DNA of 64,000 nt from contig WEDG01002038.1 of assembly GCA_017591395.1 (NCBI GenBank), positions 179,485-243,484 of the forward strand, read 5' to 3'. This document shows, in pieces, positions 8,216-56,981 of the stretch. The stretch comes from Schistocephalus solidus (Eukaryota; Platyhelminthes; Cestoda; Diphyllobothriidea; Diphyllobothriidae). Within the stretch, counting starts at the first letter, position 1; every line of letters begins with the position of its first letter. Made by a program: the position numbers and the translations under genes. The notes below the pieces were generated by a model that worked only from the letters and a program-made list of their open reading frames with translations, was not told where the DNA came from and made no database searches.

Positions 8216-8614
8216 CGTGTGCATGTGTGTGTTTGTGTGTGTGCCCCCTAAACGGGCCACGCGGTAGATGCGTTGGACCAACACGGGGGCCACATCAGGA
8301 CACGGCATGCATTATTCGGGTTGCGCTCCGCTAACAAATGCTGAACAGGGGAGGTGTGGTGGCACGCCTAGGGGCGGCTAGGACGTAGGGGACCCGGCCG
8401 CACTAGCCACCTGCGTCCTCACCCGCCTCTGGTCTTCTTGACTCTGTCTTGACACCGGGCTCAGGTGGGGGAGGAGGAGATAGTGCGGTAGCTGCAGCGC
8501 AAGGCTACTATCACTTAAAACTAATTCACGCGCAAGTAACCGTCCCTGCTCCACCCTTCCATGGAGCATACGGTGGACATCATCGGACTACGACGGTCGA
8601 AACTGTCGTGTGTG
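8216..8614 (+). repeat. LINE 3'-tail element, variant B, copy 1
   Basis: Begins after a (TG)n run with 'GCCCCCTAAACGGGCCACG' and passes 'GGTAGATGCGTTGGACCAAC' and 'GGGTTGCGCTCC'. It then enters sequence shared with the LINE 3' UTR ('TCTTCTTGACTCTGTCTTGA', 'GTGGGGGAGGAGGAGA', 'CACTTAAAACTAATTC') and ends 'GACGGTCGAAACTGTCG(TG)n'. About 370 bp. Either a truncated LINE 3' end or a SINE that has captured it. Confidence 0.7.
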
Positions 8615-8621
8615 TGTGAGT

Positions 8622-8709
8622 TTCTCATCTAATCACCGAAGTTAAGCTACGTTGGGCCCGGTTAGTACTTGCATGGGTGACCGACTGGGAATACCGGTTG
8701 TTGCTGACA
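8622..8709 (+). pseudogene. 5S rRNA 3' fragment
   Basis: About 88 bases match the 3' two thirds of eukaryotic 5S rRNA: 'GAAGTTAAGC', 'GGGCCCGGTTAGTACTTG', 'ATGGGTGACCG' and 'CTGGGAATACC'. The internal-control-region A/C-box area is recognisable (TTAAGC...GGGC...ATGGGTGACCG). The 5' third, including the acceptor-like stem, is missing. It sits exactly between two copies of the variant-B tail element, so it is a pseudogene or part of a 5S-derived composite repeat, not a working gene. Confidence 0.85.
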
Positions 8710-18800: not shown

Positions 18801-21268
18801 ACATCAACTGCGTCAAAGCGGCTTTGAGCTGAAGCTGTCGCAAAACCCTCTGCGTTTTGCTCTATCCACCTCTGGTCTCATCAGCGATGTTTGTCCCGTA
18901 GCTGTGGAGGGGGCCTTTGCCCTGAACATCAAGCTGGCTATTCTTTCGCATCTTCAATGGACCAAGGAATCCGACAAGGTGCCTATTACAAAGTTGGAGG
19001 TGAGTTAGTTATAACATTGTAAGCAATCCCTGAGGAAAACTTACTTATTGCAGTTCAGAGCTACATTGACAACCCAGCAATGTGGGTGGAATGCCGCTTC
19101 CATTTCGGAACTGGTTCGATCACATGTAGTCATTACGAGGATTAAATACTATCAATTAATACAACAACGATTTGTCCCGCCGGGCGCCATGCTGACTGCC
19201 TTCTATCATAAGAATCATAATGTAACTCTGCCCTCAACACTGACTCTCAATTTAATACTAAACCTTACCTTAACTCTAACCATAAACCTTACCTTGCAAT
19301 TTGACACGAAGTCATCTGCACAAGAGGGTCCCCTTTTGTGCGACTATCTCTAATGATGGGTTCGAGCGTGAATCCAAAACGCCAGGCTAATAAAGCTCGC
19401 GTTCCAGCGATCTTGTCTCCTTCTTCACAAAGTCACCTGTACTGAGGACGTTTCCTGTTCTCATGACCTGTTTGGGGGGTCATATAAGTAATCCTAATCC
19501 TGCTCATTGTACCCGGTGTTATCATTTACCTTAACGCTCTTGTTGAATTGCGGGTAACACACCGGTAGGTAGTTTGAAGATTACTTAAATTGGCACCTGA
19601 TACACAGGTGTGGCCTAAAGAGCATACAAGGAGACATTTAGAAACCCCAGGTATCCTTTCAACTGGAAATTAACATTAAAAGAAATACTGGGCACTAGGA
19701 CTAAATGACCAGACTAGGTTGAGAAATTTTAAACCTGAACTCCTTAATTTCTTCCCAAACTCTATTATAGGTTTCCTGCTAAACGACAATTATTTTCATC
19801 GAGAGAATCGACCTGTTTGCCCTTTTCGAACCTCTAGCAAGCCCAAGCTTCATTGAGCATTAGTAAATGCAGCCGTAAATCGATCTGACTCGAGCTGGTG
19901 GTCATAATCCGAGCACCAACACCTGTGAGAAGAAGATCACCTGATAGGTGTTGGATCGAATGCCCCTTAGTTAGAAAGACCTCCTATTAGTGCTATTGTG
20001 ATCTAATCGCCAGTTTGTAAGCAGGAAATGTCCGCCTTCTCCTGATAACCTCCTGTTTTCAAATATCAAAGGTTCTGTTTGCAGCTTAAAGCGATGGCAA
20101 ACTATGATCCAAAAATCTTTACGTCGCAGGGCTCTGTCACTGCTGATTTCACCCTTGCTCAGTTGAAGGTATTAATGCTTGAACATACTACCTACACTGC
20201 ATTCCAACCTTTGTTTAAATTGACATTAAGCGGTTGAATTTATCCGGTAAAAACTCGATGAAAGTAAAGCCAATGAAAGTAAAGCCAATTACCATGGATA
20301 GGGCCTCATAGTACCCAATGGTAATAACACCAGCTATCATAAGCATAGGGGAAACAGGATATGCCCTACCGAGAGCACAGCTACTAGCTAAAAGCCCAGA
20401 CACGTTTTTCGTCGATATTCTGCCGCTGCAAGACGCAGCTGCGAGGGGTTCATCTCATCAGTGGATCACCTAACGTTTTTCGTGTGCTTTCTGGTAGATA
20501 CTGCAGTTTTGAACTCATTGATTTTTAATTTCTTCAGAAGTTAATCTCTAATTTGGAGGATTGGGACCCTCGCACCTCTGCCATACAGCGGCGAAACACG
20601 TTCTTGGGCTTTTAGGTAGTACGTGTGCTGTCAATGTCATGCATAGTTCAACCGACATTTAAAGACACAGACCGGAAGTCGATATGAATATTTGGACCGA
20701 AGTCCATCAGCCACAGCGACTCAACTATGCATATCAACTTTCGTTCTGGATATTAAAAGCTTAAGTCCGACTAATTTACTCCAAGTTAGCTATTAATTTC
20801 TGAGGAAATCAAAAACCAATTCAAAACCAAACCCAACCAACCAACCCAACCCAACCAACCAACCAACCCAAAACCAAACCAAAAACCAGAAAGCACGCAG
20901 GGAATGCTAGAGAACCCAGCAATGTGCCGAACCCCTAACAGCTGTGCTATGCAGCTGCAGAATATAACTAAAGCAAGTGTCTGAACTGTCAGCTAGTATT
21001 AGGTTAACCCTGCATATATACCACTGGCTGCCTGGTAGCAGTTAAATGAATATTATGCGGTTATCCTGCAGTGACCGGCAGAAATCGGCCGAAAATTTCC
21101 CATCAACTGTCAGTCTACGCCTATAAAGCCTCAGATAGACTGATTTACTCCAAGTTGGTGACCGATTTCTGAGAAAATTAAAAAGCAAGAAAAGGCTTGC
21201 CAAGGATGCCTGAGGCAGAATTTTCGGCGTTGTCCAGCGGCGTGGAGGTAATCATCGAGCACTGCGAC

Positions 21269-24839: not shown

Positions 24840-25940
24840 GTACGTGAGATAAAAACTGCGAAAATTCCCATTAAAAGATTCAAAAGAAGACTTGGTGAGC
24901 ATATGCGTTGCTTTCGATAACTTCTCTTCAGGCCGGTACAGTTATAGGGAAACGTTGGAACGTAGTAGAAATTTAAAACATTAAATCGATAATGTTCCTT
25001 CGGTTGTGTGGGTTATGTGAGAGGAAGGATGATAAGATGATAAGAAACAGTGTGTTAGAGCGGCAGTGAGTGCTTTGGTAGAGCCGTTCTAGGGGAAGGG
25101 CAGGACAGAGATGGCGCGGTGGAATGCAGGCTGTTAAACGACCGCTGGCCAAGCTAAGCGTGGAGCTTTTACGAGGTTCTTTTGTGCGCACAAGACCGGT
25201 TTTTTCAACCTAATGGCAGAGGCTTCTGTTGCTGGTAGTAGACGTTGACCCAGTGACTTGGGGTAGTTTGGTGGAACCTTATAAATTACATGGATAGCTT
25301 CGCCGGGGTCCACACTATGCCCGCTGTCAACAATATGTGCAAAGATGGCGCTTTTACGCTCTTGACTTCCCCTTTGCTCAGCCATGCTGGGAGGTGTTCT
25401 CTTATTCCTTTTGGATAGGCGCCGACTCGTGCGACCGACAAAAGCAAGTAAATGAGTAAATGCACATGGAGGTTGTCTGAGCTGGCAACCTATCCTTACC
25501 TTCGCCTCGTAAAAGAGGGTTGGTTGAGAACATTATGTGAAATATCGCTGCTGGGAACGTTTGTGTAAAGGTCTTTTCAAGAGTTCACTAGCCGCATCCC
25601 CTTGAAAGGGCACTTTGAGGACTAGAGTTTTCTTTTCCACAGTAAGCTTGGCAGGTTTCACCGGTCTTGCGATAAGGTGCTTTGTAATAAACTGATCATA
25701 ATATCCGTGCTCTCGAAGTAGGTTCTGAATCTTCCCAAGCTCCTCATTGATATTATCTGCCGAGCAAACCTTTCTAGCCCTTTGCGCCAAGCAACGGAAT
25801 AGATTGCGTTTCTGTTGGAGAGGTACGAAGCTGTTAAAAGTTCGTATATTGTCCAGACCAGGTTTTTCTTTTCGATAAACGCTCCTTAGGATGCTGCCGT
25901 TCTGCTTAGGTATCGTTAAACAAAGTGGCAATAATACTAT
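24840..25940 (-). pseudogene. Penelope-like element: RT C-terminal region, GIY-YIG remnant and 3' end
   Basis: A minus-strand ORF at 25931-25533 reads 'NIRTFNSFVPLQQKRNLFRC' and 'EELGKIQNLLREHGY' then 'RPVKPAKLTVEKKTLVLKVP', the region between RT and endonuclease in Penelope-like polymerases. The endonuclease follows: 'MCIYSFTCF' near 25465, then 'GRTSRRLSKRIREHLPAW' and (25385-25134) 'IVDSGHSVDPGEAIHVIYKV'. About 14 bp that encode the 'GA.YI' part of the GIY-YIG motif in the 56 kb copy are missing near 25441. That removes the catalytic Tyr region and shifts the frame. 24840-25130 is the shared non-coding 3' end. Confidence 0.8.
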
Positions 25941-26013
25941 GTTAAATAGAAGGAGGTCGTCTCAAGTCCACGCTGAGCAACAATCACAATGATCTGTCCA
26001 CGAACTCACCCTC

Positions 26014-26280: not shown

Positions 26281-26466
26281 ACAGACTGCTGGTGGATGAA
26301 CAGGATGGGACCGAGCAAGATCCTGAGCACAATGGTGAAAATGATGCACTGACTTAACTTCTGTATATAATTCTTTTCATAAGGGATATGGCGTACTGAT
26401 GATCAGGGATGACTGTGAAACAGATTTCAGCGTCTTGATTGTTGTACGCTTAACGTTATATCTATG

Positions 26467-26518
<52 letters not shown>

Positions 26519-26761
26519 CGTCTTGATTGTTGTACGCTTAACGTTATATCTATGTATTATATATATATATATATACAGACTGCTGGTGGATGAACAGGAT
26601 GGGACCGAGCAAGATCCTGAGCACAATGGTGAAAATGATGCACTGACTTAACTTCTGTATATAATTCTTTTTGTAAGGGGATATGGCGTACTGATGATCA
26701 GGGATGACTGTGAAACAGATTTCAGCGTCTTGATTGTTGTACGCTTAACGTTATATCTATG

Positions 26762-26833
<72 letters not shown>

Positions 26834-26886
26834 GCGTCTTGATTGTTGTACGCTTAACGTTATATATATACATATATATATATATA
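26281..26886 (+). repeat. ~294-bp tandem duplication with expanding (AT)n tracts
   Basis: 'ACAGACTGCTGGTGGATGAA' occurs at 26281 and 26575. 'GATCAGGGATGACTGTGAAA' occurs at 26400 and 26697. 'TGTACGCTTAACGTTATAT' occurs four times, each followed by (TA)n (26468-26515, 26557-26574, 26763-26831, 26862-26888). No gene. Confidence 0.85.
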
Positions 26887-26925
26887 TATCACCTATATTA
26901 TACAGTACTTCCGACATAGGTACTA

Positions 26926-27014
26926 GCTAAAAGCCCAGACACGTGTTTCGCCGATGTTTTTGCTGCTGCGTGACGCAGCAACGAGGGGTTCGGCTCCTCA
27001 GTGGGTCCCCCAGC
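26926..27014 (-). ncRNA. Hammerhead ribozyme 1 (type I), intact core
   Basis: Minus strand, 5' to 3': stem I strand (GCU...CCCA), CUGAGGA (27001-26995), stem II closed by GCCGA...UCGGC with an inner UGCUGC/GCAGCA hairpin, GAAA (26949-26946), minimal stem III CACGUG, then UC and the stem I partner UGGG...AGC. Predicted cleavage lies between 26938 and 26937. Stem III together with its closing A-U is the palindrome ACACGUGU, weak as a monomer but able to pair between two copies. Confidence 0.85.
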
Positions 27015-27279
27015 GTTCTCTATGCGGTTGTTGGTATATGGACTCCAGAGAATAATCAAGGAAATAATTTCTGAAATTATTAAGTGCAGGATATGGAGTA
27101 AGATGATTCGGACATGACTTTTTAGGGTCAGACCCGACATTTCAATGAACATTTGGGTCGAAGACAATCAACCACTGTGGAATAACAACGTAATGCCCAT
27201 TATACGAACAAGTAGTACTACAAGTAGTATAAATCGTATATGGCACATATATCATACCGTACTTCCGACATAGGTACTA

Positions 27280-27368
27280 GCTAAAAGCCCAGACACGTGT
27301 TTCGCCGATGTTTCTGCTGCTGCGTGACGCAGCAACGAGGGGTTCGGCTCCTCAGTGGGTCCCCCAGC
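27280..27368 (-). ncRNA. Hammerhead ribozyme 2 (type I), intact core
   Basis: Same structure as copy 1, 354 bp downstream; CUGAGGA and GAAA conserved, all stems maintained. Predicted cleavage between 27292 and 27291. Confidence 0.85.
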
Positions 27369-27545
27369 GTTCTCCATGTGGTTTCTGGTATATGGACTCC
27401 AGAGAATAATCAAGGAAATAATTTCTGAAATTATTAAGTGCAAGACATTGAGTCAGATGATTAGGACATGACTTTTTAGGGTCAGACCCGAAATTTCAAT
27501 GAACATTTGGGTCGAAGACAATCAACCACTGTGGAATAACCACGT

Positions 27546-29083
27546 GACAGTTCGACCGTCGATTTCGACGAGGTCCACCGTATGCTCCACACCAGGTGGT
27601 GCAGGGACGGTGACTTGCGCGTGATTTAGTTTAAAGTGATAGTAGACTTGCGCTTCATCTACCGCACTCTCTCCTCCTCCCCCACCTGAGCCTGGTGTCA
27701 AGACAGAGTCAAGAAGACCGGAGATTGGAGAGGGCACATGTGGCTGGCGCGGCCGGAGCCGCCCCTGGGCGTGCCACCTCACCTGGCTCGGATCCCACGG
27801 AGTGGGAGTGCCATAAAGGCCACATTAAGAAGGAGCCATTGCAACCTGACTCTCAGTCCGCCAGTCAACCACTCCACACAAAACACACATTGGGCTGACC
27901 ACGCGGTTCAATTTATCCCGTCAGTTGGCAACCTTCCAAGCCACCGCTTTTAGTGCACCGTGATAGTTTCAAGCGCGTCAGATTATTTATAGTGAGGAAA
28001 ATACGCTGAGCTCTCGATTTCCTCTCCCCACCCACAATCAGACCACTGTCCGGAGCCGGTCGCTGTCTGATGCGGAAGCGGGTGCAGCTGCTAGTGACCT
28101 CGTCTACGTGTACTACGTACACGACCTGGCCCCCCAAACACAAGCACCAGGATTTCACACAACAGGGGGTTGAACGGCTTACATCTCACATGTGTGAGAT
28201 AGCCAGAGGTCACGTTAAGAAGGAGCTATCGCAGCCTGACTCTCAGACCACCAGTCAGCCACTCCACACAACACACATTGGACTAACTGCGAGGTCTGAG
28301 TGTAATTGTCAGTTGGCAACCTTCCAACCGCGGCACTCAACGTTACCGCACTCTCTTCTCCTCTTCCACCTGAGCCCGGTCTCACGACACAGGCAAGAAG
28401 ACTGGAGATGAGAGGTCGCAGTGGCTAGCGCAGCCGGAGCCGCCCTGGGCGTACCACCACCTGGCTCGGATCCCACAGAGTGGGAGTGCCATAAAACCAC
28501 ATTAAGAAGGAGCCATTGCAGCCTGACTCTCAGTCCGCCAGTCAGCCACTCCACACAAAACACACATTGGGCTGACCACCAGGTCCGAGTTATCCCGTCA
28601 GTTGGCAACCTTCCAAGCCACGGCTTTTAGCGCACCGTGATAGTTTCAAGCGCGTCAGATTGTTTATAGTGAGGAACATGCGCTGAGCTGTCGACCTCAC
28701 TCTCCCCAACCCCACCATCAGACACTGTCCGAGCCGGTCAGTTGCCTGATGTGGGAGTGGGCGCATTGGTTGACGGATCGGCGTACCTGTCTTCGCGCGC
28801 CACAGCACGACCTGGCCCCCCTAACGCACACACCAGGATTCACAAACTCAGGGGATATGGAGCAGCCATCGCCGTCTGACTCCCAGTCCACTGGTCAGCC
28901 ACTCGACACACACAGCACATACACTGAGCCGACGGCGTGGTCTGGTGGAAGCGTCAGATTGGCAGACTTCCCAGTCACGATTTCTAGGAAACCGTGATAT
29001 ACTCTGGTAAATGGTGATTGTGAGGGTGTTGTTGATGCATTGGTGTAGGTAGTGTGCGCTGATGTAGCTTAGCATCCGGTGGT
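27546..29083 (-). repeat. LINE 3' UTR with internal duplication
   Basis: 27659-28075 and 28345-28755 are direct repeats (offset ~686 bp), from 'TACCGCACTCTCT' through 'GGCTCGGATCCCAC.GAGTGG' to 'CAGTTGGCAACCTTCCAAGC'. Fragments of this UTR occur at 1.4, 1.8, 24.3, 47.2, 50.2, 53.0 and 62.4 kb. Explains why many non-coding blocks of the window look alike. Confidence 0.8.
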
Positions 29084-31244
29084 TTACCGGAGGTTGTCGT
29101 GGAGGCGCATGTGTCCTAATAGGCCCATGCGGTGTGTAAAGGTGCGGGAGCAGTGAGGGCAGTGAAGGTGGGCGCGTCGACTGTATGTCGGAGCCCCAGG
29201 CACTGGTTCACCAGCCTCCGTGCGATGGATTCGCAGGTGACCGACCAAGCCAATGCGTGAGTTGAAGTTGCGGGCGCAGTGTGGGCAGGATAAATCGGTA
29301 GAGGCTGGGAGGATGTCATTCATGGTAGTGGGGGTGGCAGGGGCGCTAAGAATGGCAGGAGCGGAGGGTGTGCATGGTTTATCGGTGTTGTCGGCATTGT
29401 GGTGTATTACGCTGTCATGGATGCGCATGTGACCGAATAGGCCCATGCGATGAGTGAATGCGCGAGGACAGTGAGGGCAGTGGAGGCGACGATCTCTGCT
29501 GTGTGATGGTGCTCCAGGCACTGGCTCACCGGTCTCTGTACGATCTATTCGCAAGTGACCGACCAGGCCGATGCGTGAGGTGAATGTGCGGTCGCATTGA
29601 GTACAGCTTAGGAGAGATTCCCCATCGCTGATGGTGGTGGTGATGGTAGTGAAGACGAAGGCGGTGGTGGTTGCGGTGGTGGGGGTAACAGGCGATGAGT
29701 AGATGGATGTGGTCTCTATGATGGTGGGAGCAATTGAATTGATGCCAGGAGTGAGGGTGGGGGAGTCAGAAGTGAGGGTTGGCAGAATTTGACGTAGAAA
29801 TTGGAATTGTCGGATTGTTGGTGCATTGCGTCCGAAGATGTCCAACCAGGCCGATTCGCGCGCGGAAGATGCATTGACAGCGTGGGCATGTTGGCAGGGC
29901 CTGGGCATTGGCGGTGTTGGTCCGGGGCGCTGGTGAATTTCGTGCCGCTATTTTGGCCTTGGCGGTGGCGATCCGGTTGGCCTCATAGATTGCTGAACCA
30001 GTCTTCCCTGATCTTCTCCATGCCGGTCTATCCTGGGCGAGGTCCTCCCAAGTCGCCGAGTTGATTTGCAGTTGCTTTAGCGATTTCTTCAAAGTGTCCT
30101 TGTAGCGTCGTTTTTGACCTCCCTTTCCGGCGAGAACCCGTAGCGACATCACCGTAGAAAAGTCGTTTGGGTAGTCGCTCGTCGTCCATTCTTACCAGGT
30201 GGCCGCTCCATCGCAGTTGCACTTGCCTCAGCATGGCATGGATGCTGAGGATTCCGGTCCGCTCCAGGACTTCCGTGTCCGGGATCCTGTCTTGCCATCT
30301 CAGCTTCAGTATTCTGCGGAGGCAGCTGAGATGAAAGTGATTCAGCTTCCTGGCTTGGTTCGAGTAGACGGTCCAGGTTTCCGCTCCGTAAAGGAGTGTC
30401 GTCAAGACGACGGCCTTGTACATCTTCAGTTTGGTGTTCAGGTGAATACCGTGGCGATTCCACACGGAGGCCTGCAGCCGGCCGAAGGCCTAACTAGCTT
30501 TGGAGATCCGTTGGGCAACCTCGTCATCGATTCTCGTGTTGCGCGACATCGTGCTTCCTAGATAAGCGAAGGTTTCCACATTTTTGAGTTGAGCACCGTT
30601 GACATTGATTCGAGGAGCATTGTATACTGCGCTGGGTGGCGGCTGGTGCATGACAACCGTTTTGGCTTTACTGATTTTTAATCCAAAATCGGCGCAGCCT
30701 TCGGTGAAGAGGTCCATGCTCCTTTGAATGTCCTCCACCGTTTCGGTGTTAAGGGCGCAGTCGTCCGCGAAGAGAAAGTCATGGACTATAGTCGTATACA
30801 CGGGCGTTGGAGCCTGCATACGCCGACTGTTGAGAAGGTGCCCGTCAGTTCTATAGGCGATGCGGATACCAGGCTGCTCATCACGGTAGGCGTCCATCAG
30901 CGTAGCCAAGAACATGAGACTGAAGAGGGTGGGGGCCAGTACGCAGCCCTGCTTCACTCCGTTGGTCACTGCGAATGCTTCGGATACCGTCCCTGTTGTC
31001 AGTGACGCGCGCCATCATCCCGTCATGAAGCTGACGCACCATGTGCGTGAACCGCTCAGGACAACCAAATTTCTGCATGACTTTTCACAGTCCGTCACGA
31101 TTCACCGTGTCAAAGGCTTTCGTTAGATCCACGAAGGTAGTGTATAGGTGAGTTCGCATCTCCTGACACTTCTCTTGTAGCTGGCGTGCGGCAAAGATCA
31201 TATCAGTTGTCCCGCGGTGTCGGCGGAAGCCACATGCTAATGCC
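29084..31244 (-). pseudogene. LINE reverse transcriptase with C-terminal C2H2 zinc fingers
   Basis: Catalyses target-primed reverse transcription in the intact family. Seen: 'GFRRHRGTTDMIFAARQLQE' and 'TTFVDLTKAFDTVNRDGL' (motif A, 31210-31085), 'VKQGCVLAPTLFSLMF' (motif B), 'FLFADDCALN' (motif C, about 30772-30760), 'FAYLGSTMS', '[11 protein letters not shown]' and 'RWSGHLVRM'. The C-terminus has a C2HC-like finger 'CPRCQCIFRARIGLVGHLRT', then four CPHC/CTQC fingers (about 29606-29085), each with the R/HxGL.GH(L/M)R core. In the first of these the last His is Asp. Ends with TAA after 'LHDNLR'. Ser/Thr-rich spacers separate finger pairs. Clade (RTE-like versus CR1-like) not resolved. Confidence 0.9.
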
Positions 31245-31343
31245 AATAACCACGTAATACCCATTCTACAAACCAGTAGCACTACAAATAGTATGAATCA
31301 TATATGGCACATATATTATACAGTACTTCCGACAAACGTACTA

Positions 31344-31432
31344 GCTAAAAGCCCAGACACGTGTTTCGCCGATTTTTATGCTGCTGCGTGACGCAGCAAC
31401 GAGAAGTTCGGCTCCTCAGTGGGTCCCCCAGC
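31344..31432 (-). ncRNA. Hammerhead ribozyme 3 (type I), intact core
   Basis: Core CUGAGGA and GAAA intact, stem II GCCGA/UCGGC and stem III CACGUG intact. Small changes only in loop regions (GAAGTTC, ATAAAAA). Predicted cleavage between 31356 and 31355. Confidence 0.85.
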
Positions 31433-31697
31433 GTTCTCTATGCGGTTTCTGGTATATGGACTCCAGAAAATAATCAAGGAAATAATTTCTGAAATTATTA
31501 AGTGCAGGACATGGAGTCAGATGATTCGGAAATGACTTTTTTTGGTCAGACCCGACATTTCAATGAACATTTGGGTCGAAGACAATCAACCACTGTGGAA
31601 TAACAACGTTATGCCCATTCTACAAACAAGTAGTACTACAAGTAGTATGAATCGTATATGGCACATATATTATACAGTACTTCCGACATAGGTACTA

Positions 31698-31785
31698 GCT
31701 AAAAGCCCAGACACGTGTTTTGCCGATTTTTATGCTGCTGCGTGACGCAGCAACGAGGGGTTCGGCTCCTCAGTGGGTCCCCAGC
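31698..31785 (-). ncRNA. Hammerhead ribozyme 4, core mutated
   Basis: Same fold, but the GAAA core reads AAAA (plus strand GTTTTGCC instead of GTTTCGCC). This loses the invariant G12 and should abolish cleavage. One C fewer in the stem I internal loop. Confidence 0.75.
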
Positions 31786-32212
31786 GTTCTCTATGCGGTT
31801 TCTGGTATATGGACTCCAGAGAATAATCAAGGAAATAATTTCTGAAATTATTAAGTGCAGGACATGGAGTCAGATGATTCGGACATGACTTTTTAGGGTC
31901 AGACCCGAAAGTTCAATGAACATTTGGGTCGAAGACAATCAACTACTGTGGAATAACCACGTAATGCCCATTCTACAAACAAGTAGTACTACAAGTAGTA
32001 TGAATCGTATATGGCACATATATTAAACCGAACTTCCGACATAGGTACTAGCTAAAAGCCCAGACACCTGTTTCGTCTATTTTTCTGCTGCTGCGTGACG
32101 CAGCAATGACCCAAACGTTCATTGAAATTTCGGGTCTGACCCTAAAAACGTCATGTCCGATTCATCTGACTCCTTGTCCTGCACTTAATAATTTCAGAAA
32201 TTATTTCCTTAA

Positions 32213-32730
32213 TATATATATTGAAGAAAAAAGGGCTCGTCGGAAAAAAGAGTTGTACTCGTGAATTTTCAAGTTGGTGACACCAACCCGTCGTCAGACG
32301 AAATGAACAGAGGAGAAAGTGAAGTGGCGCGACAGGACAGATTGTGACAAGCAAAACAGCTGGTGTGAGTGGGTGGTGGGTGGACCAATAATCGGGGCAT
32401 GTTTTTGGGACGGGGGGTGAGGAGAGAACAATTACATTGGCTTGTTTGGGAGGGGAGGTGGGCGGCGAGTAACTACGGCCGGCTAGATTATCGATCATGG
32501 TTCCGGGTTGGATTTAGGGGTCACTGCGTCGGTTGGAGGTGTCGGAATGTTTAATTGCGGTTCACCATGTGTGAGGTGGGGTTGGCGAAAAGTGAGATTA
32601 AAAGCCGAAAGGATTAGCAGTCGTTGCAAGGTCGTGGGCGCTCGTTAGTAAATCGTGCACGTAATCCTTCGTAATGAGCATCTAGGTCAACGTGGCGGTT
32701 AATGCTAGTTGTGCTAGAGTGCCACCTCCC
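32213..32730 (+). repeat. Interspersed repeat related to 14299-14720
   Basis: Shares 'GAGTTGTACTCGTGAATTTT', 'GACACCAACCCGTCGT.AGA' and 'GGCGCGACAGGACAG' in the same order. G-rich, non-coding. Confidence 0.5.
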
Positions 32731-33352
32731 GATCGGTGAGCGCCCCATTACCAATGTCAATATTCCCGATCGAAACCGGCAAGACAACGAGCTCGTAGCA
32801 CAGTGGGTAGAGCGTTGGACTTCTGCCCAACAAGGTCGCGAGTTCGAGGCTCGGGCGCGGCAGCGCCTGGGTTTGGGTATGGCTGGCTGATGACGGCTAA
32901 TAAGCCAGAAATGGCCATTCCAGTCTCCCCTTGTCTTTGTCGGTCAAGTTATTCTGCCTATATACATAGCTGCCTTACGGCTGCTGGCGGGGCTTGAGAG
33001 TTAGCCCCAAGGCACAACGGGACGAGTGAGTCCTGTAACCGATCGGTGAGCGCCCCATTACCAATGTCAATATTCCCGATCGAAACCGGCAAGACAACGA
33101 GCTCGTAGCACAGTGGGTAGAGCGTTGGACTTCTGCCCAACAAGGTCGCGAGTTCGAGGCTCGGGCGCGGCAGCGCCTGGGTTTGGGTATGGCTGGCTGA
33201 TGACGGCTAATAAGCCAGAAATGGCCATTCCAGTCTCCCCTTGTCTTTGTCGGTCAAGTTATTCTGCCTATATACATAGCTGCCTTTACGGCTGCTGGCG
33301 GGGCTTGAGAGTTAGCCCCAAAGGCACAACGGGACGAGTGAGTCCTGTAACC
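32731..33352 (+). repeat. Near-identical 310-bp tandem duplication of SINE family 1
   Basis: Unit 1 at 32731, unit 2 at 33041. Each has a tRNA-like head ('AGCTCGTAGCACAGTGGGTA', 'GAGTTCGAGGCTC'), the 'GGGTATGGCTGGCTGATGAC' body and the 'GGGGCTTGAGAGTTAGCCCC' tail. The only differences seen are single-base length changes (GCCTTACGG/GCCTTTACGG; CCCCAAGG/CCCCAAAGG), so the duplication is recent or an assembly duplication. Confidence 0.85.
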
Positions 33353-33470: not shown

Positions 33471-33504
33471 ATATATTTATATTTATATATATACTTTATA
33501 GGTC

Positions 33505-33655
33505 AAAGACATTATACCGTACTTCGGACATAGGTACTCAGCTAAAAAGCCCCAGACACATGTTGCGCCGATATTTCTGCTGCTGCGTGACGATAGCAAC
33601 GAGGGGTTCGGCCTCGGTGCGTCCCCCAGCGTTCTCTACGCGGTCGGTCATGTTA
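33505..33655 (-). repeat. Degenerate retrozyme unit fragment
   Basis: Contains the unit's 'GTACTTCGGACATAGGTACT' and the hammerhead area, but CUGANGA has become CCGAGG and GAAA has become GCAA; not catalytic. Confidence 0.65.
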
Positions 33656-33734: not shown

Positions 33735-34015
33735 GCAACCGACAAAGCAACGAGCCCGTGGCTCAATGGTAGAGCGTTCGACTCAAACACCAAAGGTTGC
33801 GGGTTCGAATCCTAGGTGTTCCACACTTAGGATTGGCATGACTGGCTGATGACGGCTAATAAGTTAGAAATGGCCATTCCGGTTTCCCTTGTCTTTATCG
33901 GTTCCACATTTACAACATATGCTACACGTCGCTATGCGACTGCCTGTGAGTACTCTAGTCTGAGTTCCAGGGCACAACGGAACATAAATGTTCCTTTTAG
34001 CAGATCGGTGAGCCA
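33735..34015 (+). repeat. SINE family 1 copy with well kept tRNA head
   Basis: 'GCCCGTGGCTCAATGGTAGA' (A box) and 'GGGTTCGAATCCTAGG' (B box), followed by the family body 'GGCTGATGACGGCTAATAAG'. Long body and repeats elsewhere argue against a functional tRNA gene. Confidence 0.7.
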
Positions 34016-34076: not shown

Positions 34077-34521
34077 GAATAACATGACCGACAAAGACAA
34101 GGGAGACTGGAATGGCCATTTCTGGCTTATTAGCCGGGGCTTGAGAGTTAGCCCCAAGGCACAACGGGACGAGTGAGTCCTGTAACCGATCGGTGAGCGC
34201 CCCACTACAATTGTTAATATTCCCGATCGAAACCGGCAAGACAACGAGCTCGTGGCGCAGTGGGTAGAGCGTTGGACTTCTGCCCAAGAAGGTCGCGAGT
34301 TCGAGGCTCGGGCGCCGCAGCGCCTGGGTTTGGGTATGGCTGGCTGATGACGGCTAATAAGCCAGAAATGGCCATTCCAGTCTCCCTTGTCTTTGTCGGT
34401 CATGTTATTCTGCCTATATACTTAGCTGCCTCACGGCTGCTGGCGGGCTTGAGAGTTAGCCCCAAGGCACAACGGGACGAGTGAGTCCTGTAACCGATCG
34501 GTGAGCGCCCCACTACAATTG

Positions 34522-45420: not shown

Positions 45421-45700
45421 TTAGTAAATCCTGCTTGTGCAGTCAGTTTACTGCATCATAATTAGTGGATTCCATACGTTGCGGTAGGCTGGGCGGGTAA
45501 CTTGACCCAAGTGGGATTAAACCCACGGCTACTGGGGGGTCTCGTAGCTCAGTTGACTAGAGCGTTGGCTTTACTAAAACCTCCGCCTTGCTGGCGTGGG
45601 TTCGAATCCCACCGAGGCCGGTGAGTTTTTTACAAGTGGGTCAAACGAAGTATTCAAATCTGCCATAATCTCCTGCTCATTAGAAGTTAGAGGATGGTCA
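45400..45700 (+). repeat. tRNA-derived SINE family 2, best tRNA head
   Basis: 45538-45620 folds with a 7-bp acceptor stem (GGTCTCG/CGAGGCC), D arm 'TAGCTCAGTTGACTAGAGCG' and perfect T arm GTGGGTTCGAATCCCAC. The anticodon stem is mispaired. The flanking body ('TTGACCCAAGTGGGATTAAA' before; 'ACAAGTGGGTCAAACGAAG' after) is shared with other copies, so this is a SINE, not a tRNA gene. Confidence 0.75.
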
Positions 45701-48149: not shown

Positions 48150-49830
48150 AGGTTACATGTGGTCGGAAAGAGCGTCCCGGAAGTAGGAGGTTACTGGGCC
48201 GTGTTCTAGAACCAGAACTTTCCATGACTTTTTATGCCTTTGCTGTGCTAGTTTGGATGCCACGCTCTCTGGTTGATGCACCGATTTGATTCTTTTCCCG
48301 GCACGAATATTATCCACCGTCCTCAAAATGGAAACATCCGAAAAATTGAACGCAATCAATAGAAAACCTCATCACAATTCACAATATTTTTTTGACGTCA
48401 TGACGACTTGAGTGCGACTCGTGGTAAAAGCAAGCCAAGGACTAAATCGGTTTGTGGAGCATCGCAGAATTCGAGAAATGGTGCTCTACCAGCGCCACCC
48501 AGCACGAGTTCATTATCCCTGCTGGCGATACTCACTTTCGCCGAAAACTGTATCTCCTTTAAGCCGCGCTAGCTGTGTGTATTGAACTATCCAGTCAGCA
48601 AAATGTGGCAGTTGAGTGTGACTGGGTTGCAGCAGGAAACCGTGCACCAGCGCTTTCGCTCCCTGCATCCACCCAAATGTTGTTGTTTGTGGATTCATCA
48701 AAACGCCAAAACATTACCACACTAAGGTGGGTCTTTAGTTCACTTGTGCGATAAGAAAGATCACGTGCAAATGGGTAGGGGACTTATAAAGAGTTTTGCG
48801 AAAAAAAAACCGGTGAACATGGCCTAGGCGGGTTCCTAATACCTGAGACAGAATACCGTATTGAACGCTCTTCTCTAGGCAAATCCTAGGATACTGAAGT
48901 AAGTGTGCGGTAAATAAGGATGTGTGCTATCAAGGAAAATACATTAGATTCCCTAAGTCATGAAATGTCAACCGAAATTCTGAAATGTGTTTTTTCGAGG
49001 CAAACAAATTACTTAAGTAGGGCTGTTTTATTGATTATCGCGCAGCGTGCTCCGAAGACATTTCAGTCACAGTACGATGTCGGCTTCTGAAAAAGCTTCT
49101 TTCTGCCCACCCGCAAAAAGTATACTTTGCGTTCTTTTGCTACCAAAAGAGTGTAAGAAATGATATTTTATGCATGCTTTTTATAAAATATATTTGAATG
49201 TATAAGGACAGTTAAAATCAGTGAGAAAATACATGCTATTTAAATAGCCATTTTTTACAGAGTAAACTTTTTGCAGGCTGGCAGTTAGGAGCTCGTTCAA
49301 AAGCCAAGTCAATCGGTATAATAACCCTACTCAACTAATTTGTTCGAATCGGAAGCACATTTCAGCATTTCGGTCGACATATAATGAGATAGGGAGTCCA
49401 CTGTAAGTCACTGAATGAGAGAGTACGTGCATTTTCAAAGGGAATAAAGGCTTAGTAGGAAATATAACTTCTTATGAGGTAGAATCTGCATTGAGTGCGT
49501 GACAGTTTTCGATGCTCAGTCACTGATGAGTCGAGGCTTCTTATTCGCCAGGAGAAAAAGCCTACTCGAGCTGTAATTAACCCCTGCTGATCCCTACCTG
49601 TCGCAGGAAAGCCAATAGTTAGGCTAACGGACAAGGCCATAATTCCGAAGAAGATGCGTTTAGTGGAATCTGGCGTTCAGTGGCCTCATGTTTTGGTTTC
49701 TCTCGAACCCATCCGCAGAGACAGTTGCATAGAAGGGTAAAAGGGGCACAAGGTTAGCATCGATCGCATCTTAATCTTCTTCTGAACTGCTTCCTGGAAC
49801 TCGTCCATTCGGTTCTATCAGCAAGGCTAT
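48150..49830. other. No recognisable gene; repeat shared with 38.2 kb
   Basis: 49235-49440 pairs with 38150-38420. Remainder has no supportable feature. Confidence 0.4.
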
Positions 49831-49834
49831 ACTA

Positions 49835-49990
49835 ACAGCACAGCTAGTAGTTAAAAGCCCAGATACACGTCATTCGCCTATCATGTGCCAGTGCCTGACG
49901 AAGATCTGAGTGGTTCGGCTCATCAGTGGGTCCCCCAGCGTTCCCCGTACGCTTTCTGTTTTTTTCTATCTTAAATAGCTCCAGAGTTGT
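49835..49990 (-). ncRNA. Hammerhead relic with canonical CUGAUGA
   Basis: Minus strand: 'GACCCACTGATGAGCCGAAC', stem II GCC...GGC, then GAAU instead of GAAA and GTGTATC at the cleavage region. Shares 'TAAAAGCCCAG' with the array units but diverges elsewhere. Could derive from a Penelope-like element terminal repeat or from an older retrozyme family. Probably inactive. Confidence 0.6.
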
Positions 49991-54254: not shown

Positions 54255-54960
54255 AGGAATAGGCAATATTGGACACTAACCATCCAACCATCGCGAAGAT
54301 TTATGGACTGCCTAAAGTCCACAAAACTGAAGTTCCACTGCGACCTATAGTCTCATTGATCGGTGCGCCCAACTACAAAATTTCCATGTGGTTATTCCAA
54401 AAGCTTCATCTGCTAACGAAGAATTGTAAATCCTCAATTGAGAATTCAACGGAATTTCTAAAGAAATTAAAAGAAACCACAATCTCCAAAGATGTAATAA
54501 TGGTCTCCTTCGATGTCGTTTCCCTCTTCACGGCCATACCGTTAGCCCTAGCAAAACAATACACAGAGGAACTTCTGTTTTCCCACGATACGGATGTTTC
54601 AGCAGCGTCTGTACTCGAACTCATGGACCTATGCTTAGAAACTAACTTCTCATTCGACCGAAAATGTTATAAGCAACTGAAAGGAGCTCCAGTGGGGTCC
54701 CCCATCTCTGCTTTTCTCGCCGAAATCACAATGCAGAATCTCCACAGCATTTGTGATTTCCAATTTTGCAGCCCTATGAGAACCAGGAGATTTCCTGGAA
54801 GATGATGCCTTGGAAACTAAATGGAAGACTCAACTGGTCGAATGTGTAATCCACCAACTACTTTTTCTCAAACAGTCTTTCGGAGAGGGAAACAGGTTTA
54901 AAGAAGAGACGCATTTTGCATCAGGTTAGTATCGATTAGCTGTCGAAATTCCCCTAAGAA
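54255..54960 (+). pseudogene. Penelope-like reverse transcriptase fragment
   Basis: Polymerase of a Penelope-like retroelement. The ORF (54269-54805) has 'IYGLPKVHKTEVPLRPIVSL', 'VMVSFDVVSLFTAIP'-type motif A ('MVSFDVVSLFTAIP') and motif B 'KGAPVGSPISAFLAEI'. The catalytic YVDD block (motif C) that should follow within ~30 residues is absent; the frame closes after 'RTRRFPGR'. 5' part also missing. Opposite in orientation to the endonuclease piece at 56 kb, so not one element. Confidence 0.9.
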
Positions 54961-55069: not shown

Positions 55070-55325
55070 GTATGGTAAGTAGGCGCTCATCGATCGGTTA
55101 CAGGACTCACTCGCCCCGTTGTGCCTGGGGCTCACCTTCAAGCCCAACCAGCAGCCGCACAATGACTAGTATCGTGGGCAGAGGATAATTGCCGACAAAG
55201 ACAAAGGAGACTGGAATGGCCATTTCTGGCTTATTAGCCATCGTCAGCCAGTCATACCCAACCCCAGGTGTTGCTGCACCCGAGGCTCGAACTCAAAACC
55301 TTGCGATGAATTTCGGGAAGGTAAA
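55070..55325 (-). repeat. SINE family 1 copy (minus)
   Basis: Tail 'CGATCGGTTACAGGACTCAC', body 'GGCCATTTCTGGCTTATTAG' and head 'GAGGCTCGAACTCAAAACC', read on plus as complement. Confidence 0.7.
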
Positions 55326-55339
55326 AATTCCTGTGGCAT

Positions 55340-55610
55340 AAGCCTATCACTAACTTTAACTGAAACCCTAAGCTTAAACGTAGCCCTTAAGCCTTCAATT
55401 AACACGAACCGAAACCTTAACCCTTGTCCTACTCCTGACTCTAACTCTGATTTGAACCCTAACCGTAAACCTAACGGTAAACTAAGCTGTAACCTTCCCC
55501 TTAAGCTTAAAGCTAAGTTCCCCGGAATCGGGTGCAAAGCCACACGTACTGTGGGCGGTTCCTGTTCCCATGATTAGGCGGCCATACAAGTCATCCTTAC
55601 CACGCAAGGC
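55340..55610. mobile_element. Foldback MITE relic with telomere-like interior
   Basis: AACCCTAA/CCTTAACC repeats at 55350-55505, then 'CACGTACTGTGGGCGGTTCC' and 'TTAGGCGGCCATACAAGTCA', the right terminus of the family. Left terminus not found. Confidence 0.6.
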
Positions 55611-55744: not shown

Positions 55745-56460
55745 TTTTGAGATTTGTGTAGATTCCCATCAAAGGATTCAGAAGACTAGTTGGCGAGCAT
55801 ATGCGTGCTTTCGATAATTTCTCATCGGGCCAGTACATTTATATGGGAACGGAGTACAAGCTAAAACATACGATGAATAATGTTCGTCTCGTCATGCCTG
55901 TGAATTGTATTAATAGGGGGAGGGGGGTGGCGATAAGAGACAAATGGTTAAGCGGTAGTGAGGGTTTGGTGGTCGTTCACGAAGGGGAGGGGGGAGGGAG
56001 GGAGACGGCGTGGAGTGCATGTAATTAAGCCATCGTCGGTCCTGCGAAGCGCAGAATTCATAGTAGGTTCTTTTATGCGCACAAGACCGGCTTTCTCAAC
56101 CGCATGGCGGTGGCTTCTGTTGTTGCTAGCAGCCGCTGGCCCAGTGAAGTGGGGTAGTTTGGTGGCATTTTATAAATCACATGGAAGGCTTCGTTAGGGT
56201 CCACACGGTGCCCGGAATGAACCAAGTGTGCGAGAATAGCGCTGTTTATGCTTTTAACTTCGCCTTTTCTCAGCCATGCCGGGAGGTGTTCCCCTTATTC
56301 TTTTGGCTAGGCGCCGACTCGTGCGACCAATATAATCTGCTCCCCAGAAGCAAGTGAATGGGTAGATGCACATTGGGGTTGTCTGAGCCGGAGACCTATC
56401 CTTACCGAGAACTAAGTAGCCATTACTCTCACCTGCGACCCTGCTAACGTCATAAAATTT
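55745..56460 (-). pseudogene. Penelope-like GIY-YIG endonuclease and 3' end
   Basis: The minus strand (56400-56260) reads 'PMCIYPFTCFWGADYIGRTS' and RRLAKRIR, keeping the GADYIGR catalytic stretch of a GIY-YIG nuclease. The frame then breaks ('GTPPGMAEKRRS'), but the continuation 'LVHSG.R..PNEAFHVIYK' and 'ATTEATAMRLRKPVLCA'-like codons are visible down to about 56060. 55750-56040 is the non-coding 3' end shared with 24.84-25.13 kb. Confidence 0.8.
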
Positions 56461-56981
56461 GGCTCCCACTTGCCTTTTTGAGCGTGAGTTCAAAGTCCTC
56501 AAAAGATAATTGCAATTGTAGAAAAGCACATACAATTTTGTGATGGATGAGCGTCTCCGTCTGGCTCCTGCAACCGACCACCCGCTGTGCACGTCATGGG
56601 AGAGTTCGCAAATTTGCACGCGCTTTCAGTCAGACACTTGTCGCAATACGCAGTTCGGCGCTCCGTACATTACTTGCTCCCAAAGTCCGAGCAAAAGTGA
56701 TCGGATAAGCAGAAAGTGACAGCAATAATGTGAATGATGAGAATGCGAGGACTTCCCTGTGTAATTACTAGCACCTGACGGCGTTAGTTGGAATCTGCTA
56801 CGATTTGTACCTACTTATCGATAAAGGAAATATGTATCGGCCACAGGAAGGGTATAAGCATACAGAGGGACTTTTGATTAACTTACGTGCATTATTAACT
56901 AATAATACGATCAGCCGAGAGTATGCGGATAATGTAAAGCCTGGAAGTGGGCAAGACTGCCTTTATACTCAAGCTCTTGAA

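Follow-up and report, generated by a model that had tools for sequence, protein, structure and literature searches.

Metazoan retrozymes of the non-LTR (long terminal repeat) kind have been described in coral, mussel and axolotl, and the same study states that analogous repeats are present in platyhelminths (PMC7229834). According to PMC7761336, helix III is stable in most of the invertebrate hammerhead motifs tested and dimers are needed by amphibian motifs; retrozyme repeats are described there as carrying no conserved motif that would reveal which autonomous element mobilises them. The tandem array described here is of interest for the insertion route and the enzyme source of animal retrozymes, being a locus at which the array ends are readable. 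It lies in a 64,000-nucleotide stretch of the genome of the tapeworm Schistocephalus solidus (contig WEDG01002038.1, positions 179,485 to 243,484), referred to below as the window, where the minus strand of 26883-32106 includes about 4.3 tandem units of 353-354 nt with a type I hammerhead motif. We consider it likely that the array is a non-autonomous metazoan non-LTR retrozyme that was reverse-transcribed into a (TA)n site with inversion of its 5′ end.

A retrozyme had been proposed by a first-pass annotation made from the letters of the sequence. Among the properties that define such elements are a type I hammerhead with a conserved core, tandem repeats of 150-450 bp and a G+C content below 50%. 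Others are a lack of LTRs, primer-binding sites and polypurine tracts, strong self-pairing of the unit RNA, target duplications of more than 4 bp where these occur, unit-length RNAs in linear and circular form, and the presence of Penelope-like elements in the same genome. The units at this locus measure 353-354 bp and the G+C content is 0.43, 0.42 and 0.43 in the three units measured (P1, P2 and P4). The hammerhead with its conserved core is present as a motif but scores below the Rfam threshold, so that the proposal stands on the motifs, the unit length and the base composition and falls short at the Hammerhead_1 cut-off. Comparable type I hammerhead repeats, to which the annotation also pointed, are metazoan retrozymes, SM-alpha and Penelope-like elements. 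Repeats of this kind have already been published, platyhelminths included, and the array adds another. Among the titles and abstract openings listed, with subscription papers mostly uncovered, no cestode retrozyme was found in the literature, and its absence from print is not claimed. One exact 23-base pattern had no matches in viral contigs and prokaryote genome contigs, a result that the exactness of the pattern makes weak.

Anatomy of the array

The units are bounded by predicted cleavage sites on the minus strand at 32063/32062, 31710/31709, 31356/31355, 27292/27291 and 26938/26937. As they lie, the site-to-site spacings are 353, 354, 4064 and 354; once a long interspersed nuclear element (LINE) is removed together with one copy of its flanking duplication, the unit lengths become 353, 354, 354 and 354. 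Five units at 353-354 bp in a tandem array spanning 26890-32212 had been reported before. The four spacings agree with this once the LINE is taken out, but the raw gap of 4064 does not, the fifth motif consists of its 3′ half only, and the tandem arrangement extends to 32106, the sequence at 32108-32213 being inverted and outside it.

In the reading direction of the units, the array begins with this inverted piece, which lies on the plus strand, corresponds to unit positions 133-237 and was recognised by blastn (95% over 106 nt against the unit consensus) and as inverted repeats. It joins sense sequence that begins near position 308-310, in stem II, and that constitutes a 5′-truncated piece on the minus strand (32063-32106, approximately unit positions 308-354) in which a hammerhead is represented by its 3′ half only. 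The minus-strand units P1 (31710-32062, 353 nt) and P2 (31356-31709, 354 nt) follow. Unit P3 is split into a 5′ part (31245-31355) and, beyond the LINE, a 3′ part (27292-27545), and unit P4 (26938-27291, 354 nt), which has two intact hammerhead sites as its bounds, is at present the sole LINE-free unit of 354 nt flanked by two intact motifs. The array finishes with a partial unit (26883-26937, minus strand, positions 1-55, delimited by blastn with the unit consensus), so that its 3′ end lies near unit position 55 and continues into a (TA)n tract (26861-26889). Adjoining this end is a 295-bp tandem repeat at 26281-26819 (1.8 copies, 97% matches) that itself ends in a long (TA)n.

The element splitting unit P3, which the first-pass annotation had passed over, is a 5′-truncated LINE of 3,699 bases on the minus strand (27546-31244), identified by its Pfam frames and by an 11-bp target duplication, AATAACCACGT, found at 27535-27545 and 31245-31255. 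Its reverse-transcriptase frame (30490-31014) matches RVT_1 with 46.5 bits (Pfam cut-off 29.6), and a second frame (29084-29947) encodes C2H2 zinc fingers according to Pfam. The LINE inserted within one unit of the array and is therefore the younger of the two.

Diverged relatives were detected elsewhere in the window by nhmmer and blastn. Copy A (20287-20502, minus strand; covering unit positions 213-354 and continuing to 111) keeps CUGAUGA and GAAA and was rejected as a hammerhead both by Rfam and by our motif scan. Copy C (20879-20998, plus strand) has lost the core motifs, and copy E (49830-49958, minus strand) keeps CUGAUGA and has lost GAAA. Copy D (33497-33644, minus strand; covering unit positions 264-354 and continuing to 55) is a single copy with a damaged core; in unit coordinates its end falls close to that of the array, and it is followed by TA-rich sequence. 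The region 20287-21129 can be considered an older cluster of diverged retrozyme pieces, those at 20583-21129 in mixed orientation, and resembles the array's inverted 5′ end. Only copy A aligns far beyond the ribozyme part; because local alignments favour similar parts, we make no strong claim that the ribozyme part is better conserved than the rest of the unit.

The hammerhead motif and its predicted dimeric form

The complete motif has the layout CCCA-CUGAGGA-GCCGA-[35 nt]-UCGGC-GAA-ACACGUGU-C-UGGG on the minus strand, which is the order already recognised in the first-pass annotation (CUGANGA, here CUGAGGA; GCCGA/UCGGC; GAAA; CACGUG; UC/UGGG). The array includes four complete motifs, three of them with a whole core, as the annotation had also said, and a fifth, at 32063/32062, that is represented by a 3′ half carrying further changes. 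The intact motifs, all on the minus strand, are located at 26926-27014 (predicted cut 26938/26937), 27280-27368 (27292/27291) and 31344-31432 (31356/31355). The fourth complete motif (31698-31785, minus strand, at site 31710/31709) reads GGC-AAAA, with G12 replaced by A; it is identified by its sequence and by its dimer fold and has no Rfam row.

At gathering scores Rfam found no hammerhead in the whole window, the Hammerhead_1 cut-off being 34 bits. When 26850-32300 was searched on both strands in E-value mode, Hammerhead_1 matched exactly the three intact motifs, at 26932-27007 (22.8 bits), 27286-27361 (22.8 bits) and 31350-31425 (23.1 bits), with E-values of 0.039-0.049, and no Rfam hammerhead was found on the plus strand. 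When E-value mode was applied to the entire window, these three rows reappeared at E 0.46-0.57 among 21 rows mostly of unrelated families. The covariance-model check suggested earlier therefore ended in a near miss: the model located the three intact motifs exactly, but with scores under the curated cut-off. A relaxed motif scan gave four hits in the 64-kb window (three in the array and one elsewhere) against a mean of 0.015 and a maximum of 1 in 200 dinucleotide shuffles, and a stricter count gave four real hits and none across 200 shuffles; the scan criteria were fixed after the array had been seen, and the three array hits are related copies rather than independent ones.

Helix III of the motif would consist of the palindrome ACACGUGU, without space for a stable loop. 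Among the minimum-energy folds of the four 94-nt cores, the double hammerhead is predicted in 4/4 homodimers, as judged from the half of each dimer that the first strand contributes, and the complete hammerhead in 0/4 monomers. Stem I of the predicted dimers is 12 pairs long (11 in unit 4), including four G-U pairs, and has one bulged A; a 9-bp hairpin with a three-base loop lies within the 35-nt stem II insertion. Each core of a double hammerhead would cut the partner strand, and an intact neighbour might therefore still cleave the site next to the dead core. Folded as a circle, the unit RNA is predicted to be 61-64% paired.

A tRNA-headed repeat resembling a short interspersed nuclear element (SINE) includes a conserved block, oriented like the tRNA part, that is interpretable as a minimal hammerhead of type I; such minimal motifs are dispersed in animal genomes according to PMC7761336. 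Copies of the block are found at 55204-55256 (minus strand), 32878-32930 (plus strand), 33205-33233, 33854-33882 and 34352-34380 (plus strand), with further copies present. The tRNA model scores 26.4, 22.1 and 22.1 bits, all under the gathering score of 29. CTGAYGA and GAAA occur together in 7/11 aligned copies, and the base of stem II is an unpaired C-A in 9/11. One copy (55247 to 55215, minus strand) passes the motif scan, and its homodimer is predicted to fold in the double-hammerhead form. Rfam found no hammerhead at 55195-55360, and within 32700-33000 it yielded only a sub-threshold tRNA match. The window also includes a 5S rRNA match at 8592-8709 (plus strand; 39.1, slightly over the gathering score of 38) and a tRNA at 45538-45620 (plus strand), called tRNA-Ser with anticodon ACT by ARAGORN.

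Origin of the array and alternative explanations

The retrozyme reading draws on the anatomy of the locus, the chance level of the motif, the duplication around the LINE and the inverted 5′ piece, together with the predicted double-hammerhead fold. The steps proposed below add to this, by inference, ribozyme cleavage, circular RNAs, an insertion primed at the target and the identity of the enzyme. The minus strand would be transcribed, and the hammerheads of neighbouring units would pair through ACACGUGU to form a double hammerhead cutting 3′ of GUGUC, thereby releasing RNAs of 354 nt that a host RNA ligase of the RtcB type could circularise. The reverse transcriptase of an autonomous element would then copy a multi-unit RNA, or go round a circular one several times, starting at a (TA)n target, and such copying would leave the units in tandem, with the 5′ end of the series truncated and inverted. 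The LINE would have entered one of the units afterwards.

Several results weigh against this identity. The Hammerhead_1 scores lie 11 bits under the cut-off, which we take to be because of the 35-nt insertion in stem II. Covariation gives no support: the pair counts on eight copies, with the structure drawn from one of them, were within the shuffle range (92/500 shuffles for cells paired and 255/500 for double changes), and this was also the case with a longer stem I (208/500 and 313/500). When shorter cores of 80 nt are folded, the double hammerhead is predicted in 2/3. The pairing energy of the dimers is ordinary, 10 to 19 of 50 shuffled cores being equally low; an energy argument for dimers was dropped for this reason, and the predicted topology alone was used. 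The whole unit does not stand out clearly from its shuffles in structure, with a z of −0.89 for the linear form and of −2.09, −2.09 and −1.22 for the circular units (1, 4 and 13 of 100 shuffles equally low). In addition, both flanks of the array are (TA)n-like, so that a target duplication of the array would not be discernible there.

The tandem form, the one dead motif among the four complete ones and the failure of both Rfam and the motif scan to detect copies A, C, D and E would also suit a satellite DNA whose hammerhead is decayed or only incidental and which spread through unequal exchange at the DNA level, with no involvement of RNA, and the conflicting patterns of variants shared between units (see below) are compatible with exchange between them. 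However, dispersed single copies, the 5′ inversion and the 3′ end that the array and copy D share approximately, in both cases beside TA-rich DNA, are better explained by the insertion of RNA copies, and the core has been kept whole in three of the four complete motifs. On balance we regard a satellite origin as improbable. We give still less credence, to the point of considering it very improbable, to the array being the tandem pseudo-LTR of a Penelope-like element rather than an independent retrozyme. Such a pseudo-LTR would be joined to coding sequence for a reverse transcriptase and a GIY-YIG domain. Frames that we take to resemble a Penelope-like reverse transcriptase and endonuclease are found about 0.9 kb from the array (25134-25961, minus strand), at 54263-54805 (plus strand) and at 56254-56625 (minus strand), but Pfam did not confirm them: the only match was a sub-threshold RVT_1 at 54263-54805 (21.9 against 29.6), with none in 25134-25961. 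Moreover, the 295-bp repeat separates the nearest frames from the array. Type I hammerheads do occur in the pseudo-LTRs of Penelope-like elements (PMC7761336), but the published pseudo-LTR motifs are minimal, and the motif described here, with its 12-pair stem I (11 in unit 4) and its 35-nt stem II insertion, is not.

Within the retrozyme reading, the array may retain marks of its insertion. The order of the inverted piece is what both twin priming and a fold-back of the complementary DNA (cDNA) would yield, and the data do not separate the two. The 3′ end near position 55, common to the array and copy D, comes from two insertions only and is a hint rather than a rule. The unit rows have 45 private differences, one of them false and due to an out-of-register join in P3, and five minor states common to two rows, which fall into mutually conflicting patterns. 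In a crude simulation that assumed even sites and half transitions, 1.2 shared states were expected and five or more occurred in 0.5% of runs. The units could already have been different at insertion or could have exchanged sequence later, and the shared states argue against a single-circle template only as a hint, as exchange between units would look alike. A tentative account, which we judge unlikely as a whole, combines these marks: target-primed reverse transcription into (TA)n from near unit position 55, with 5′ inversion by twin priming or fold-back, on a multi-unit RNA that already included the unit variants rather than on one circle, the locus near 20 kb being an older event of the same type. 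With a multi-unit template, circles need not be a transposition intermediate, unlike in the published model. It is possible, though doubtful, that the inverted 5′ piece was instead produced by a later DNA rearrangement and is uninformative about insertion. The locus near 20 kb also has pieces in mixed orientation, and rearrangement may be common in these repeats; on the other hand, the inverted piece at the array fills exactly the interval from the truncated first unit to the flank, as twin priming or cDNA fold-back would place it. The locus supplies a pattern that can be tested genome-wide, in which the 3′ end lies near one unit position in (TA)n, the 5′ end is inverted and unit variants are mixed within one array.

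Relation to known hammerhead repeats

The array is most readily placed beside the metazoan non-LTR retrozymes (PMC7229834), which it resembles in unit size, tandem form, low G+C content and ribozyme type. It differs from them in the 35-nt insertion in stem II and in the loopless palindromic helix III. The repeats of newt and axolotl (330-353 bp; PMC7229834) are similar in unit length and in having a weak helix III, for which the ribozyme needs to be dimeric; unlike the array, they belong to vertebrates, and 126,247 motifs are reported in axolotl. The SINE-like SM-alpha of schistosomes, with a unit of 335 bp, and the W-element (PMC8490949) are comparable to the array by description, both being flatworm repeats with type I hammerheads. 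The minimal hammerheads of Penelope-like elements (PMC7761336) are also type I and tandem and may cleave as dimers, whereas in the array stems I and II are longer and no coding part was found joined to it.
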